Part shown: piece after piece, positions 15,724 to 24,977 of the stretch
Layout of the letters: each line of letters opens with the position of its first letter
Numbering within the stretch: the first letter of the stretch is position 1
NCBI GenBank assembly: GCA_028279825.1
Contig: JANQNA010000007.1
Span: forward strand, 1 to 64,000
Length of the DNA: 64,000 nucleotides
Direction of reading: 5' to 3'
Origin: an archaeon
GTDB taxonomy: Archaea > Aenigmatarchaeota > Aenigmatarchaeia > GW2011-AR5
Notes under the pieces: generated by a model
Told to the model about the DNA's origin: nothing
What the model saw: the letters and a program-made list of their open reading frames with translations, nothing else
Database searches by the model: none
Position numbers and translations under genes: made by a program

Positions 15724-18700
15724 TTATTTCTTACTTATGTTATCTAGTTTTCTTTGTATAGTCCTCTTCATTTCCTTGTAAGCTGTTTCACTTATTATAC
15801 TCTCTTTTCTTTCTTTGTCCAATACCGACAACATTCTACTTAATTTCTCCTTTTCCTTTGTCATGGATACTTTGCTTGGTTTGTGTGGCTTTATTCTATC
15901 TGCTATTTGTTTCAGGTGAATCAGTGTCTGTTGAATCTGTTTTGGCATCTTCTTTTTCCTGTTAAGATAGAACAGGATTATTATTACTGTCAATGGTATC
16001 AGAAGTATCAGTATTATTACAAGTATGCTTAACGGCTCTGCTCTCAGTGTTGACTCTAACGTGCTTAATATTTCTTTTGCTTTTTCAATAAGTATCTTTG
16101 CATCCTTGATGTGATTTAGTGCTGTTTGTGTATTGTTCAGATTGGCATTTATTTCTGCCTTGTTTATGTTCTGAAGTATTTCATCGGCTATAAAGAGAAC
16201 ATTTTCGACAGGTTTACCCTGGGATTTAGCAACCCCTATATCTATTAACAGGTCTCTATACTGGTTTTTCAGGTCTGCAATTTCGCCGTATATCAGATCC
16301 GATAAAGTCTCCACAACCTGTATGGTTATTGATCTCTGGTCACTTGTTGTACTCGTTGTTACTATAAGATTTGCTTTGTATTCACCGAGCTCCGCATTTT
16401 CAGGCACCTCAAACTCAAGAACAAAGACGGAAGTGTTATCAGGACTTAGCTTTTGATAGATTGTAGGTGTTATGTTGAACCAGTCAGCTGATATTCCTAA
16501 TACATTTAGCTTTATCTCATTCAACGGAAGTTCCCCTGTGTTCTTTATTACAACATACTCTATCCTCTTGAATCCCGGATAAAGTTTCAGGTCATCCGGA
16601 TATTTTTCAATAAACACTGATTTTAACCTGTCGGGTGCTTCAACATCAGTTACCTGTGCTGTTACCTTTGTTATTGGTGTTGTTCCGCCGCCGCCTCCAC
16701 CCGTAGGTTCTTCAGTAACGTTGTAACCTGCAGCAAGAACGTTGAATGTTGTACTTGCGTTTATAGGTGGCTGGGTATTATCGTATCTTACAGTTGCCGT
16801 AAACTTGTAAGTACCTAAAGGCTGGTTTGAAAACACAAAAGGTGTTCTTGTGAAGCTTACATTAGAGAATGCAGGTGTAAGTACAGCTTCCTCATCTTCG
16901 AAATACACAACCCTTGTTGCCAGATTCGCTATAGTATAATTAATGAATACGTCCTGGGTTACTTCTCCCTTATTTTCTATATGAATTTCGAACGTTGCCG
17001 GTGTTCCCTGCTGAACTTCAGGTGTCAATGCAACAACTCTAACGTCGTAAGGACCACCCTGTGTCACACGGAAAGCTTTCAGTTTCATTGTTGAAAGAGT
17101 TCCTTGTGTAACGTTCAGAACAGCCAAATACATTCCATTTGCTGTCGTAGCCGGCATTGCATAACTGTACAGGTAGTATCCGGAGCCTAATTGTGTCATT
17201 GAAGAATCTGTGACTGAAAAGTATGTGTTCTGTGCAGGATCAAGAACGGTCAGATTCATTGTTGTAGGATTTACCGGCTGTCCCTCACCGTCGTAAATCA
17301 AAGTATTAATTCTCATGACGTTGTTAGGAAACCAAACAACTGCTGTTTCAATATCAGCGAACAATCCTGTAACAGTAACTGTTTTTGCACCTACATCAAA
17401 TGTGTATGTGTTCTGGTCAGTTACCATCTGATCTAGTAAAGTATCGTTATATGTTGAATTTGTTTTCAGTGTATAGGTTCCGACTATCGCGTCTGATGCC
17501 AGTAAAAATGTTGGCAGAGGAGCAAATGTTCCCAGATAATCTGTTAATCTGTTTGCAGTATATATCAAAGTTGAGTTTGGATCGTAAACAAAGAATGATA
17601 CGTTAACATCTTCAACACCTGAACCATTCAGTGCAGTTGCTGAATAATAAAGTGTTGCAGTGTCACCCTGATAGTACTGGCTTGACAATGTTGTTGCTGC
17701 TATATTTACCTTTTTCCCTATTGTGAAATTTGTTGTTGAATTTCCAACGTTTCCTATGGAATCTCTTGCATATATTGTTACATTATATGTACCACGGGCG
17801 GATGTATTACCGAACGTTCCGTTGGCATAATTTACTGTCCATCTACTTACATTGCCTATCTGCGATACAAATGACATATTTGCAAAGTCTGATGTACTGT
17901 TAGGTCTCAATATTGTCACGTTTGCAATTGTTACCGAGAAGTCCCCTGCAGTTATATTTGCTGAAATTGTCACCTGTTCGTCCTGTTCAGGCTCTTCCGG
18001 AGCCACTTCTATTGTAATGTTTGGAGGGGTATAAGGCAGTATTGTTACATTTAGAGTTATGTTAACCGGAGTTGCGTTATCCAGTGCCTGGACGACAAAT
18101 GTTGAGTTGTACTCTTTCTGTGCGAATCCCGTTATGTTGTACAGAACCGCGAACGTATAGTTTTGACCTTCCAACGAAGTGAAATTTGTTACATTTGTAC
18201 TGGTCTTGTTTGCATTTACAGATATTATTGTGAAATTTATGTCTTCATTTCCTATGTTTGACACATTTACTTCACATACAGTTCCCTCATTTGAGAAGGA
18301 ACTTTTCTGGCAGAATGTTGGCTCCATTCTCCATCCTCTATTGGCATCAACTGTAACAAATAATGTAACCATTCGTTCTCCGTCATTTTGTGTTGATACA
18401 TTCAAAGTTCCGTTGTGTATACCTGCAGAAAAGTTAACAGGAACTGTGATGTTAATCACAACAGACGTGTTTGTTCCAAATTCAAGATTTTCTATCGTGG
18501 ACGGTATCACAGTAACAGTAAGATTATTACATACTGTGCCGCTGTTACAGGTGAATGTTATGTTTGTCAGGTTCCCACTACCCGTGGAAAGAACTGTCAA
18601 GTTGTAAGGATTTGTTGTCTGTCCGTGATAAACATTACCAGTTAGTGTAGAGTTTTCCACATTAAGTACAGGATTATCGACAACGGTTACGTTGAATATG

Positions 18701-21561
18701 TATAACTGTTCTGCTGTTGTGTTATCCAGATTTGTATATACACTTGTTATGTTTATTGTATAATTACCGGGTGCGGTACCGTTTGGTATTGTGACTGAGA
18801 CATCCTTGGAGCAAACCTGGTTGTGTGTTATGTTTCCGCAGTAATCAATTGTAGTATTCATAGCCCATCCAGGAATTGTTGTATAAGTTATGTTTGTGTA
18901 CCTTGCACTGCTGTTTCCTACATTTGTCAGATTTGTCTTTATTGAAAATGTTGAATTATCAAATACTGTTATGTTCAGGGCCGTTATGTTTACCGGGGTT
19001 ACTACCATTGATATGTTGGTTTTGTTCTGTATTGTCAGGAAGAATATAACAGTGTCTGTTGTGTTTGACACTGAAGAGTTTACAAGAATAGTACCGTTGT
19101 ATGTACCTGGTGTGTAGTTAAGGGATATATTGGCTATTATATCTATAGAGAAATTATCGCCGCTGGGTAACTGTGATAAGAAAGGTGACGATACAGTTAT
19201 ATTGAAATTCTGGCATGCATATCCTGATCCGCAGGATGTATTTATGCTCCACGTGTTTGATATACCTATCGATTCCAAAAGAAATGTACCTATGGTTTTT
19301 GACGTACCATCTGCTCCCACACCTGTCACGTTTGTTTCGGCAATAGAAATTTGTGAGTGAGGTGAAACAGTTACATTCACAGTTGCGTTTGTTGTGTTGG
19401 ATGAGTAATCAGGGTTTATCCACACAATGCTCAAATTAAACGTGTAGTTACCAATGGCTGTGTTGTTTGGTGCTGTAACATTCACAGTTCTTACACATGA
19501 TGATTTATTTGCTATGTTTCCGCAGCTCTGTATTACACCTGTCCAGTTTTCCAGCAACTCAAGTGTTATGTTTGAATCTCTTGATGTACCATCTCCCGGA
19601 TTTGAAAGGTTAACATCTATAGAGAACGTGCTGTTAAATCTTATTGTCATATTTTCCACGTTTGGTGTCAAAGGTGTCCAATTAAGTTCAAGGTAAGTTT
19701 TCGGTGCTTCTGCCGTGAATTGTTCGGTACTGTTTCCTGTATTATTCACCTTTGTTACGTTACAGAATAAGTCGTACATGCCAACCTGTGCAGGAGCCGT
19801 GAAATTAATTGCCCATGTTCCGTCAAGATTGTCTGTTTTATTAACTACATTGGTGTTATTGAACGTGCAGTCCAAAGAAGATCCCGGTATCTGCAGTGTT
19901 TGGTTAAAGTTCTTTATTGTAATAACTGCAAATATCTGCCTGCTTACAATACCTATGGAGTTCGATATGTTTACATCTACAGAATAAACATCCGTTACGT
20001 TGAAAATGAATGTTGTTGAATTCAGATATTCTTCAATGTCGTTATATGTAGACAAGTTCATGATCCATTGTGTTGTATTTACGTCTGACGGGAACGTGTA
20101 ATTGTTTGTGAATATCTTATCGTCGGCTGTTTGATCACCGTTTGTTCCGTCATCATAAAGTCTTACTATAGTATCATCTGACGTCGAAGGAGTTCCCATG
20201 TCCAGTGTTGCGTTTATGTAAGCAACAAGATTGTACGGATCTCCCTCGGACACATTTCCCTTTATCAATACAGTTTCGTTGTAATTGAAAATTGTTGCAT
20301 TGATTGAAGGTTGTATAACGTTTGACCATTTTTCTGACAAATTACGTGTTATTATAACATCTGTGGAAGACCCGTTACGAACGTCTAAAAACTCTGACAC
20401 ACCATCAGAACCACCGGTTGCAAAGAATATAACCGCTGTTTCTTTTATTGAAGTTCCATCCGTTATTGTTGTGTTTGTTAAACCTATACCTATTCTTCCA
20501 AGACCTGTTGTGTCATTTCCAGCATAATAGTTTGAACTTGTTTCATTGATGTTTACCAAACCTGCTACACTACCTGACGAGTCGGAAGCCCAAGTCCACG
20601 AATAAGGATCGTTCATATCCCGGTCTCTGTTATTCACATCATTGTTAAGGAATGTTCGTTGTACATCCAGGGCAACTGCCCCGAATCTGCTGGATCTATT
20701 CACAGTAGCGTTCGCAAAGAACTCGTGGCTAATCTTTATGAACGATCCTTCGGCTTCAGGTCCTGCTCTGTTGTATATGAAATATTTCTTTACCACTCTT
20801 CCCTGCCCTGTTTGTTGTGATACATTACCAAATACAACCTCGGGCCCTTCCTGTATTATGGTTAATCTGACAGGTCCCCATACGAATGACGCGTTACCTA
20901 TCAGGTCAAACGTTGTGTTAATAGTTCCGTTGTAGAACTCTAAATATTCAGCTGTTCGTTCGGAAGATGATGTCACAATAACAGGTACGAAGAATACGCG
21001 CTGCTGCACGTAAGATAAACCTGATGTGTTTTCGTATCCGTTTGTGTCTATCTTTATTCCAAGCATTGTTGTATTAACGGAAACTATTTTTCCGTCCCAT
21101 GAGTAAGATATGTTTGAATCATAATTGGCAATATCTTTCTGTGTGCTTCCATCTATATCAAAGTATACGTAGAAGGTTCGCTTCTGATCCGGATCAGTAG
21201 TTCCGTTCATTAGGAATATTAGTTCGCCTATTGCATTGGATGCATTGTTATAGCCTGCACCTTTGTCGAACTGGCTTGGAACGACATGCATTACGTGATT
21301 CGTTTCATTGTATTCAACAACTCTTATTGATTCGTTATCAAATGTGCCTCCAGGCAGTAAGTCTGAAAAATTCACCGTCATTTCTATCGGCCAGTCTGTC
21401 CTGTTTACTGTTGTTCCATTAACCTCTATCTTAAACCTGTAATCCCATGAAATATTGTACCATTCACCGTCTGTTGGGTTGGAAAATCCGGAGAATGCTG
21501 TAACTATGCCTAATGAAGCTATGAGTAATATCAGCCCTATGTAGATTCGTTTTTCTATCAC
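15724..21561 (-). CDS. Giant surface protein with signal peptide, NEW3/CARDB-like repeats, C-terminal TM and SHOCT-like cytoplasmic tail
   Basis: GTG start; N-terminal hydrophobic signal MIEKRIYIGLILLIASLGIVTAF; sequon-rich repeats; TM LSILVIILILLIPLTVIIILFYLNRKKK; tail LDKERKESIISETAYKEMKRTIQRKLDNI. Confidence 0.92.
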   Translation of the reverse strand: MIEKRIYIGLILLIASLGIVTAFSGFSNPTDGEWYNISWDYRFKIEVNGTTVNRTDWPIEMTVNFSDLLPGGTFDNESIRVVEYNETNHVMHVVPSQFDKGAGYNNASNAIGELIFLMNGTTDPDQKRTFYVYFDIDGSTQKDIANYDSNISYSWDGKIVSVNTTMLGIKIDTNGYENTSGLSYVQQRVFFVPVIVTSSSERTAEYLEFYNGTINTTFDLIGNASFVWGPVRLTIIQEGPEVVFGNVSQQTGQGRVVKKYFIYNRAGPEAEGSFIKISHEFFANATVNRSSRFGAVALDVQRTFLNNDVNNRDRDMNDPYSWTWASDSSGSVAGLVNINETSSNYYAGNDTTGLGRIGIGLTNTTITDGTSIKETAVIFFATGGSDGVSEFLDVRNGSSTDVIITRNLSEKWSNVIQPSINATIFNYNETVLIKGNVSEGDPYNLVAYINATLDMGTPSTSDDTIVRLYDDGTNGDQTADDKIFTNNYTFPSDVNTTQWIMNLSTYNDIEEYLNSTTFIFNVTDVYSVDVNISNSIGIVSRQIFAVITIKNFNQTLQIPGSSLDCTFNNTNVVNKTDNLDGTWAINFTAPAQVGMYDLFCNVTKVNNTGNSTEQFTAEAPKTYLELNWTPLTPNVENMTIRFNSTFSIDVNLSNPGDGTSRDSNITLELLENWTGVIQSCGNIANKSSCVRTVNVTAPNNTAIGNYTFNLSIVWINPDYSSNTTNATVNVTVSPHSQISIAETNVTGVGADGTSKTIGTFLLESIGISNTWSINTSCGSGYACQNFNITVSSPFLSQLPSGDNFSIDIIANISLNYTPGTYNGTILVNSSVSNTTDTVIFFLTIQNKTNISMVVTPVNITALNITVFDNSTFSIKTNLTNVGNSSARYTNITYTTIPGWAMNTTIDYCGNITHNQVCSKDVSVTIPNGTAPGNYTINITSVYTNLDNTTAEQLYIFNVTVVDNPVLNVENSTLTGNVYHGQTTNPYNLTVLSTGSGNLTNITFTCNSGTVCNNLTVTVIPSTIENLEFGTNTSVVINITVPVNFSAGIHNGTLNVSTQNDGERMVTLFVTVDANRGWRMEPTFCQKSSFSNEGTVCEVNVSNIGNEDINFTIISVNANKTSTNVTNFTSLEGQNYTFAVLYNITGFAQKEYNSTFVVQALDNATPVNITLNVTILPYTPPNITIEVAPEEPEQDEQVTISANITAGDFSVTIANVTILRPNSTSDFANMSFVSQIGNVSRWTVNYANGTFGNTSARGTYNVTIYARDSIGNVGNSTTNFTIGKKVNIAATTLSSQYYQGDTATLYYSATALNGSGVEDVNVSFFVYDPNSTLIYTANRLTDYLGTFAPLPTFLLASDAIVGTYTLKTNSTYNDTLLDQMVTDQNTYTFDVGAKTVTVTGLFADIETAVVWFPNNVMRINTLIYDGEGQPVNPTTMNLTVLDPAQNTYFSVTDSSMTQLGSGYYLYSYAMPATTANGMYLAVLNVTQGTLSTMKLKAFRVTQGGPYDVRVVALTPEVQQGTPATFEIHIENKGEVTQDVFINYTIANLATRVVYFEDEEAVLTPAFSNVSFTRTPFVFSNQPLGTYKFTATVRYDNTQPPINASTTFNVLAAGYNVTEEPTGGGGGGTTPITKVTAQVTDVEAPDRLKSVFIEKYPDDLKLYPGFKRIEYVVIKNTGELPLNEIKLNVLGISADWFNITPTIYQKLSPDNTSVFVLEFEVPENAELGEYKANLIVTTSTTSDQRSITIQVVETLSDLIYGEIADLKNQYRDLLIDIGVAKSQGKPVENVLFIADEILQNINKAEINANLNNTQTALNHIKDAKILIEKAKEILSTLESTLRAEPLSILVIILILLIPLTVIIILFYLNRKKKMPKQIQQTLIHLKQIADRIKPHKPSKVSMTKEKEKLSRMLSVLDKERKESIISETAYKEMKRTIQRKLDNISKK

Positions 21562-22819: not shown

Positions 22820-23458
22820 TTATTTGCCTTTGCACTTTAACCATTTGCCTTCTGTAACGATGCTAATTTTACCATCTACAACCTGTATACCAGTCTCATC
22901 GTCGATCACGTATGTGTCACCCACTAGGTCTTTTGAAACTTTCGAAAGATTTTCATCAGTCACATGTGGAAAGTCAGGAGAGTTGAGGTGAGGGCGTATA
23001 TTGAAATCAACAAAGCCAAGGCCTTTTGGTATGATTTTTCTTGGCTCATCATAAATAAAATCCGAAGACGCATGAAGTGTTTTGGCCGTAGCTATACTGC
23101 CAGCACTTATTCCCACATATATTCTGGTTTTCAGAAGTTCTTCCAGTTCTTTGTCAAGACCTGAAGCGGAAATACATTCCATTAAATGTGCGCTATTTCC
23201 ACCGCCGAAAACTATTACATTTGCTTCTTTGATACGTGGCAGCCAAACACTTCGCTCTACAGCAGAAATGTCAACTATATCAACTTCGCCCACTTTTTGA
23301 AAGTTTGTGAGATCATTTATCAGCCAGTATTTTGATCCTTCTACTATGTTCGCAGCCGTTGGAATAAATGCTACTCTCACTTCGTCGTTGACCAACTTTT
23401 TTAGTGCATCCCGTAGTGTTTTGTTACACACTCCGTTGGATGTCAATAACAACTTCAT
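22820..23458 (-). CDS. Peptidase S51 / dipeptidase E-like protein
   Basis: FGGGNSAHLM and GISAGSIA nucleophile-elbow motifs. Confidence 0.8.
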   Translation of the reverse strand: MKLLLTSNGVCNKTLRDALKKLVNDEVRVAFIPTAANIVEGSKYWLINDLTNFQKVGEVDIVDISAVERSVWLPRIKEANVIVFGGGNSAHLMECISASGLDKELEELLKTRIYVGISAGSIATAKTLHASSDFIYDEPRKIIPKGLGFVDFNIRPHLNSPDFPHVTDENLSKVSKDLVGDTYVIDDETGIQVVDGKISIVTEGKWLKCKGK

Positions 23459-23460
23459 AA

Positions 23461-23556
23461 TAGCCCCGCCAGGATTCGAACCTGGGTCACCTGGTCCAGA
23501 GCCAGATATGCTTGACCAAAATGCGTATTTTTTAGAATACTCTACACTACGGGGCT
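23461..23556 (-). tRNA. tRNA-Gln (anticodon CUG) with ~23-nt insertion in the D-loop (candidate non-canonical intron)
   Basis: AGCCCCG acceptor pairs with CGGGGCT; anticodon arm TCTGG-CTCTGGA-CCAGG; T arm CCAGG-TTCGAAT-CCTGG; D arm GTGT...GCAT interrupted by about GTATTCTAAAAAATACGCATTTT; 96 nt total, 73 nt after removing the insert; no encoded CCA. Confidence 0.88.
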
Positions 23557-24420: not shown

Positions 24421-24520
24421 TCTATTAATTAGTCACAAAAATATTAATCCTTGTTCGCTAAAATACGTTGACTGGTTTGTTACCCAATACTGTTTTATAT
24501 CTTCTATATACAGTTTTCTC

Positions 24521-24743: not shown

Positions 24744-24977
24744 TTATATCTTCATCTCGTCGAGAAAACGGTTTCCTTTCTGTGTGATTACGTAACATGT
24801 AGAACCAATTGGATTTACTTCTGAAAGAAGGTTGTTCTTTAGCAGGTTTCTTGTAACAGAATCAATAGCTGAAGCAGAGCCTCCGTTACTTTGTAAAAAT
24901 GTCTTTAGTTCAGAGCGTGTAATAATGTGGTTTTCAGCTACCTTCTTCAGGATCCTTTTTTCTGATGGGCTTAACAT
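24744..24977 (-). CDS. Winged-HTH protein
   Basis: SPSEKRILKKVAENHIITRSELKTFL...SVTRNLLKNNLLSEV...YVITQKGNRFL. Confidence 0.7.
   Translation of the reverse strand: MLSPSEKRILKKVAENHIITRSELKTFLQSNGGSASAIDSVTRNLLKNNLLSEVNPIGSTCYVITQKGNRFLDEMKI

Follow-up and report, generated by a model that had tools for sequence, protein, structure and literature searches.

How does a tRNA gene come to carry an extra segment in its D-loop, and what is that segment? The question is raised by the tRNA-Gln(CUG) gene on the minus strand of the window, the 64,000-nucleotide stretch of archaeal DNA analyzed here. Read from 23556 to 23461, the gene is AGCCCCGTAGTGTAGAGTATTCTAAAAAATACGCATTTTGGTCAAGCATATCTGGCTCTGGACCAGGTGACCCAGGTTCGAATCCTGGCGGGGCTA and comprises 96 nt including the discriminator A73. 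An earlier note on this DNA had described a tRNA-Gln(CUG) with an insertion of about 23 nt in the D-loop, the removal of which leaves a canonical 73-nt tRNA with good acceptor, anticodon and T arms, and both statements held. On the unspliced window ARAGORN called no tRNA, whether its intron option was on or off, and it called tRNA-Gln(ctg) once the 23 nt were removed; as a control, none of 300 shuffled 73-mers was called as a tRNA. The acceptor, anticodon and T stems are intact, and the pairing of the D-stem is kept. The features of the locus are listed in Table 1.

Table 1. Features of the tRNA-Gln(CUG) locus and its surroundings in the window
Feature	Coordinates	Strand	Basis or remark
tRNA-Gln(CUG) gene, intron-containing	23461..23556	-	nt 1 at 23556, discriminator A73 at 23461; canonical once 23 nt are removed
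Exon 1 (tRNA nt 1-15)	23542..23556	-	doubles as the final 15 nt (S-P-V-V-stop) of the HEG frame
D-loop intron, 23 nt, AGUAUUCUAAAAAAUACGCAUUU	23519..23541	-	BHB parse; boundaries match intronless relatives
Exon 2 (mature nt 16 to 73)	23461..23518	-	spliced tRNA model
D-stem 5' strand GUGU	23544..23547	-	pairs with GCAU of the intron in the precursor or of the exon in the mature tRNA
Intron GCAU, mimic of the D-stem 3' strand	23521..23524	-	forms the central BHB helix
Inner BHB hairpin GUAUU-CUAAAA-AAUAC	23525..23540	-	BHB parse
HTH + LAGLIDADG_3 homing endonuclease gene (HEG), 292 aa	23542..24420	-	Pfam; AlphaFold2 pLDDT 90; stop is tRNA nt 13-15
Degenerate orphan tRNA-Gln 5' half, intronless, AGTCAACGTATTTTAGCGAACAAGGAT	24447..24473	-	17/21 matches to CGTAGTCTAGCGGTCAAGGAT in 24447-24467 (shuffle p<=0.01)
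Winged-helix gene, left flank of the insertion	24744..24977	-	adjoins HEG-less tRNA-Gln in G002, G006, G010, G012 and G013
Peptidase S51 gene, right flank	22820..23458	-	Pfam; same place in G010

A BHB parse (AG^A...UU^U) delimits the insert as AGTATTCTAAAAAATACGCATTT (23541-23519). The boundaries proposed earlier need a shift of 1 nt, the intron starting one base earlier, and the hairpin GTATT-CTAAAA-AATAC that had been noticed within the insert is recovered as the inner BHB helix (23525-23540). Cutting after the second bulge base would give the mature D-loop AG-U-GGUCAA; at this position all intronless tRNA-Gln relatives but one have a U or a C instead of an A. The BHB consists of a central 4-bp helix, GUGU(10-13)/GCAU, 3-nt bulges AGA and UUU, and the inner helix GUAUU/AAUAC, and it is a relaxed BHB in that the outer helix is absent. 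Because the intron duplicates the 3' strand of the D-stem (GCAU), the same GUGU would have different partners in the precursor and in the mature tRNA. The tRNA-Gln of a relative, G006, carries a different insert at the identical position, with GUGU/GCAU read by eye at the 3' end of the insert. As 6.75% of shuffled inserts score as well as this BHB, the fold alone is mildly above chance, so the case for an intron rests on comparison, and the shuffle test was dropped as chief proof. A group I intron is ruled out by size (23 nt, against a ribozyme core of 200 nt or more). The sequence thus supports the insert as a non-canonical D-loop BHB intron that would be removed by splicing.

The window belongs to genome G000 (978 kb, about 91% complete), a member of an Aenigmatarchaeota-type class that includes G003, a relative of the same genus. 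A second intact Gln(CUG) gene, which the earlier note would have taken as a sign that this copy is a pseudogene, was not found in this genome, whose other Gln gene (contig C3) has the anticodon UUG. About 30 tRNAs were read in G000, and a D-loop insert occurs in seven of them: Gln-CUG, Gln-UUG, Asp, Glu-UUC, Thr-GGU, Arg-GCG and Val-GAC. Several of the six besides Gln-CUG (L011, L022, L023, L024, L025 and L060) were missed or misplaced by ARAGORN, and a simple BHB search of the inserts found none for Asp and none convincing for Val. The assignment as a non-canonical intron fits all tests. D-loop introns are, however, common in the host's class, so the intron alone is less exceptional than the earlier note had held. 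By itself, it is a further member of an already known intron type.

Such introns had been expected to need a splicing endonuclease of relaxed specificity, and the enzyme encoded in G000 is in keeping with this. Its EndA is one 196-aa protein (L001:1474-2064, G000:C2) with an extra loop, GVQLKKGPKS, which recurs with small variations in the EndA of 20 class genomes, is shared with the broad-specificity Nanoarchaeum subunit NEQ205 and is absent in the M. jannaschii enzyme. The loop is CSL-like, and loops of this sort give crenarchaeal EndA broad substrate specificity (PMC6379350). In the same 20 genomes (L001, L314-L332), the catalytic Lys position (M. jannaschii K156) is Ala, while the Tyr and His are retained. 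A heterotetrameric EndA was rejected for G000, where only one EndA gene exceeded the cut-off, with at most a sub-threshold second match in a 625-aa frame. Two genomes of the class (G022:C50 and G027:C2) encode a two-domain EndA of about 410 aa in addition to a 200-aa EndA. The ligase RtcB is also encoded in G000.

The larger finding concerns the neighbouring gene. The final codons of a homing endonuclease gene (HEG), AGC CCC GTA GTG TAG, are tRNA nt 1-15, and its stop codon TAG ends exactly at the 5' splice site. In the encoded protein, two LAGLIDADG motifs follow an N-terminal helical (HTH-like) domain. The LGDG and DTDG motifs, with their acidic residues, are invariant across 28 HEG homologues, and the model has the alpha-beta-beta fold; the closest folds to the AlphaFold2 model (pLDDT 90) are archaeal inteins, I-Tsp061I and I-DmoI. 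Judged by its sequence, the protein is a LAGLIDADG homing endonuclease, which would be expected to cut DNA and to home. Its nearest relatives, in G003 (61% identity), G133 (48-49%) and G045 (40-41%), also stop inside tRNA-Gln(CUG) genes with D-loop introns, within their first 10-15 nt. Neither the HEG overlapping the tRNA up to the splice site nor the orphan tRNA half upstream of it, described below, appeared in the earlier note.

The surroundings of the HEG indicate that it is an insertion. The order in the family is orf25048, winged helix, tRNA-Gln, and then S51 or DUF498 where seen. At this conserved site the HEG is patchy, being present in G000 and G003 and absent from the same locus in G002, G006, G010, G012 and G013. 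Synteny with the HEG-less relatives thus shows that the HEG was inserted where the winged-helix gene and tRNA-Gln otherwise adjoin. In G001, a different, broken HEG lies ahead of an intronless tRNA-Gln. No integrase was found in the interval from the winged-helix gene to the tRNA, whose ORFs of at least 70 aa are the HEG, two short antisense ORFs inside it and one 73-aa ORF. Elsewhere in the window (15724-21561, minus strand) lies a gene for a 1945-aa surface-type protein, which has numerous repeat domains rich in Asn and Thr and a membrane segment at the C terminus.

We surveyed 139 HEG loci from the host's class, named archaea (DPANN) and CPR bacteria; they were picked by similarity and cannot count as independent of one another. 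At least 102 of the 139 have a recognised tRNA between -180 and +60 nt from the HEG 3' end (87 on the same strand, 15 antisense), and further HEGs have tRNA-derived C-termini that the tRNA finder missed. Where at least 400 nt of flank was present, a tRNA lay at the 3' end in 93 of 127 loci and at the 5' end in 8. Among same-strand HEGs, the stop codon has two favoured places, tRNA nt 13-15 in 29 loci and nt 8-10 in 14. At either position, tRNA 5' processing would strip the stop from the HEG message, which is possibly a brake on HEG expression. The isotype of the tRNA tracks the HEG phylogeny (FastTree): the Gln label changes 4 times against 31.3 when shuffled (reached in 0/500 shuffles), Ser 2 times against 19, and all groups together 30 times against 81.5. 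Members of the Gln clade come from Aenigmatarchaeota, Woesearchaeota, Pacearchaeota, Micrarchaeota and Diapherotrites.

Several members depart from the arrangement in the window. CPR bacteria (L121-L159) have HEGs of this family at intronless genes for tRNA-Ser and tRNA-Tyr, whose 5' ends the HEGs overlap or adjoin; GCTG, the common D-stem of tRNA-Ser, is seldom found in the HEG-linked genes, and its lack may be a further escape from self-cutting. Antisense HEGs enter tRNA genes from the 3' end (L033, L038, L040, L049, L175, L177, L182, L202, L220 and L221), their C-termini, such as GFEPS, being translated from the complement of the T arm, and many of these tRNAs carry introns in the anticodon or variable region. 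A literature search, with most subscription papers and preprints outside its scope, found no description of a tRNA-associated HEG family in DPANN or CPR.

Many of the HEG loci also retain a tRNA fragment. An orphan 5' half of a tRNA of the same isotype lies upstream of the HEG in 21 of 34 full-length Gln/Glu-linked loci (shuffle p<=0.02), and most of these orphans, the window's included, stop 26-43 nt short of the HEG start. The window's copy, CGTATTTTAGCGAACAAGGAT at 24467-24447, is identical to an intronless Gln D-arm at 17 of 21 positions. Perfect copies of tRNA nt 1-22 or more occur at L090, L095, L108 and L117, and at L220, with its antisense HEG, the orphan is a mirror image, a 22-nt tRNA 3' end. 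None of the 21 orphans contains a D-loop intron, though about a dozen of the downstream tRNAs have one. The orphans thus put the insertion point near tRNA nt 22-26, in an intronless gene to which the cassette would have given a new half. No orphan was detected at the closest HEG relative (G003/L080), and few were significant for the Ser and Tyr HEGs of CPR bacteria and for other isotypes. At L235 (G163:C22), tandem tRNA-Gln 5'-end pieces (AGCCCCATAGTATA...) lie directly upstream of an intact tRNA-Gln and may be scars left as HEGs inserted and were lost more than once.

The presence of a HEG is statistically tied to alteration of the D-arm. Outside the host's class, in hand tallies that ignore phylogeny except via within-genome pairs and use HEG loci found by similarity, D-arm introns occur in 13 of 23 HEG-linked tRNA-Gln genes and 3 of 28 unlinked ones (p=7e-4); one extra nucleotide between A14 and G18 occurs in 5 of 10 HEG-linked and none of 25 unlinked intronless tRNA-Gln genes (p=8e-4); either alteration is present in 18 of 23 against 3 of 28 (p=1.6e-6); and discordant pairs of tRNA-Gln within a genome number 9:0, the intron always being on the HEG side (p=0.004). 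L235 was left out of these counts, having first been parsed as a 108-nt D-loop intron when it is actually a triple tandem of tRNA 5' pieces. The excess of altered D-arms next to HEGs is expected if the alterations block re-cutting. Inside the class, again by hand tally, the link is weaker, with D-loop introns in 14 of 26 tRNAs linked to a same-strand HEG against 11 of 47 unlinked non-Gln tRNAs (p=0.011).

The association is not a strict rule. A reading in which a HEG always means an intron is refuted by one Pacearchaeota HEG subclade, all of whose members sit on intronless tRNA-Gln, and by the intronless HEG-linked tRNAs of CPR bacteria; self-cutting would have to be avoided in some other way there. 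Strict dependence of the intron on a resident HEG is refuted inside the host's class, where the tRNA-Gln genes that lack an intact HEG still have D-loop introns in 12 of 18 cases, so that a resident HEG is unnecessary for keeping the intron. We infer that the class introns outlast the HEGs that favoured them.

These intron-containing but HEG-less genes, together with the six other D-loop-insert tRNAs of G000 and the G006 intron at the same position without a HEG, are what would be expected if the insert were an ordinary non-canonical BHB intron, acquired by a transposition of tRNA introns like that in Thermoproteales and unrelated to the HEG, whose presence next door would be a coincidence. 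We regard this as unlikely, given that the overlap of HEG and tRNA is systematic and isotype-specific, that the HEG is tied to D-arm alteration within genomes too, and that the orphan halves put the insertion point in the D-arm. Still less probable is an intron-encoded HEG, in which the orphan 5' half would be spliced to the 3' half across one long intron made up of the HEG, the second 5' half and the insert, the internal 5' half serving as a backup: the four loci with perfect orphans would suit it, but in the window and most loci the acceptor strand of the orphan has decayed too far for pairing with the 3' end, and the internal 5' half is intact wherever the tRNA was recognised. Equally improbable is retention of the insert, in which case the gene would be a pseudogene or give a tRNA-Gln whose D-loop is enlarged, and tRNA-Gln(UUG) would read CAG; the Gln(UUG) gene on contig C3 could wobble-read CAG and a second CUG gene could be missing from an assembly of this completeness, but against it stand the intact acceptor, anticodon and T stems, the kept D-stem pairing, a BHB that fits in the right place and orthologues conserved in relatives.

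We therefore favour the reading that the insert is a BHB intron belonging to a mobile LAGLIDADG cassette specific for tRNA-Gln, in which the D-arm change shields the HEG-bearing allele, and consider it probable. What the DNA itself shows is the parse of the intron, the overlap of HEG and tRNA, the orphan halves, a phylogeny that tracks isotype and the statistical link between HEG and D-arm alteration; from these we infer splicing, DNA cleavage, the site of the cut and protection by the intron. The endonuclease would cut the D-arm of an intronless tRNA-Gln gene, and repair of the break would put in the HEG with a new tRNA 5' half, and perhaps the intron, at about nt 22-26. The former 5' half would be left stranded upstream of the HEG, while the new one would be joined to the 3' half already in place. 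The recognition site would then be split by the D-loop intron, or by one more base in the D-loop in other lineages, and the HEG-bearing chromosome spared from re-cutting; an altered D-stem may also protect the HEG-bearing allele. At HEG-linked tRNAs the insertion point and the altered D-arm coincide, and this is where the cut presumably falls. EndA would excise the intron from the pre-tRNA-Gln and RtcB would seal the exons, so that the spliced tRNA would stay normal despite the intron. The intron could have arrived with the cassette or arisen later. Counting against the cassette model are the degenerate orphan in the window, the lack of a detectable one at G003/L080, the share of shuffled inserts that score as well, and the Ala at the Lys position of EndA, along with the class introns that lack a resident HEG, the intronless HEG-linked tRNAs of the Pacearchaeota subclade and CPR bacteria, and the similarity-based choice of HEG loci. 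For the family as a whole we lean, with less assurance, towards a picture of widespread tRNA-isotype-specific LAGLIDADG cassettes in DPANN and CPR that insert in tRNA genes, swap the 5' half (the 3' half for antisense members) and drive or bring D-loop BHB introns as self-protection.

Several known systems resemble this one in part. The non-canonical BHB tRNA introns of Pyrobaculum and other Thermoproteales and of Nanoarchaeum (PMC3218864, PMC4090602) are likewise short introns outside 37/38 with a relaxed BHB and a conserved spliced tRNA, whereas here the host is a DPANN archaeon and an endonuclease gene overlaps the tRNA and ends at the splice site; for the reviewed Thermoproteales cases no transposition mechanism is known (PMC4090602). 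The free-standing HEGs of T4-type phages, with intronless and collaborative homing (mobE, and SegB in the T4 tRNA region; PMC2988022), also lie beside their presumed target, with an intron in the presumed cleavage site. Those systems involve GIY-YIG or HNH enzymes and group I introns, whereas here the enzyme is of the LAGLIDADG type, the intron is a BHB intron, the specificity is for a tRNA isotype and half of the tRNA is replaced. Insertion in a tRNA gene, a replacement piece, a left-over tRNA fragment and possible intron delivery are shared with the tRNA-targeting integrases (SSV/pNOB8 type) and with the model that Sugahara et al. 2012 proposed for intron gain (PMC3293823); in contrast, the inserted interval here has an endonuclease alone and no integrase, the 5' half is replaced and the insertion is in the D-arm. 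By analogy, the cassette thus resembles T4-type intronless or collaborative homing (PMC2988022) combined with an integrase-like replacement of a tRNA half (PMC3293823). I-DmoI and I-Tsp061I, from archaeal rRNA introns, have the same fold and two LAGLIDADG motifs, whereas the window HEG has an extra N-terminal helix-turn-helix-like domain and lies upstream of the intron rather than inside it. The Randau-Soll hypothesis, as cited in PMC4090602 and PMC3293823, holds that tRNA introns shield tRNA genes from mobile elements. In both cases the intron would shield a tRNA target; in their hypothesis, as cited there, the threat is integrating viruses, whereas here the candidate threat is the HEG and the shield is on the HEG-bearing allele.

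If this reading is true, it would provide a DNA-level mechanism for the gain of archaeal tRNA introns with the insertion scar still visible. The loci show together a candidate agent, its isotype specificity, an insertion point and the remnant of the intronless target, and the protection hypothesis of tRNA introns would become testable with one enzyme and two DNA substrates. The family also offers a large set of endonucleases, each of which may recognise a different tRNA gene. With relatives that have the same arrangement, the locus suggests a concrete, testable path by which archaeal tRNA introns may be gained.
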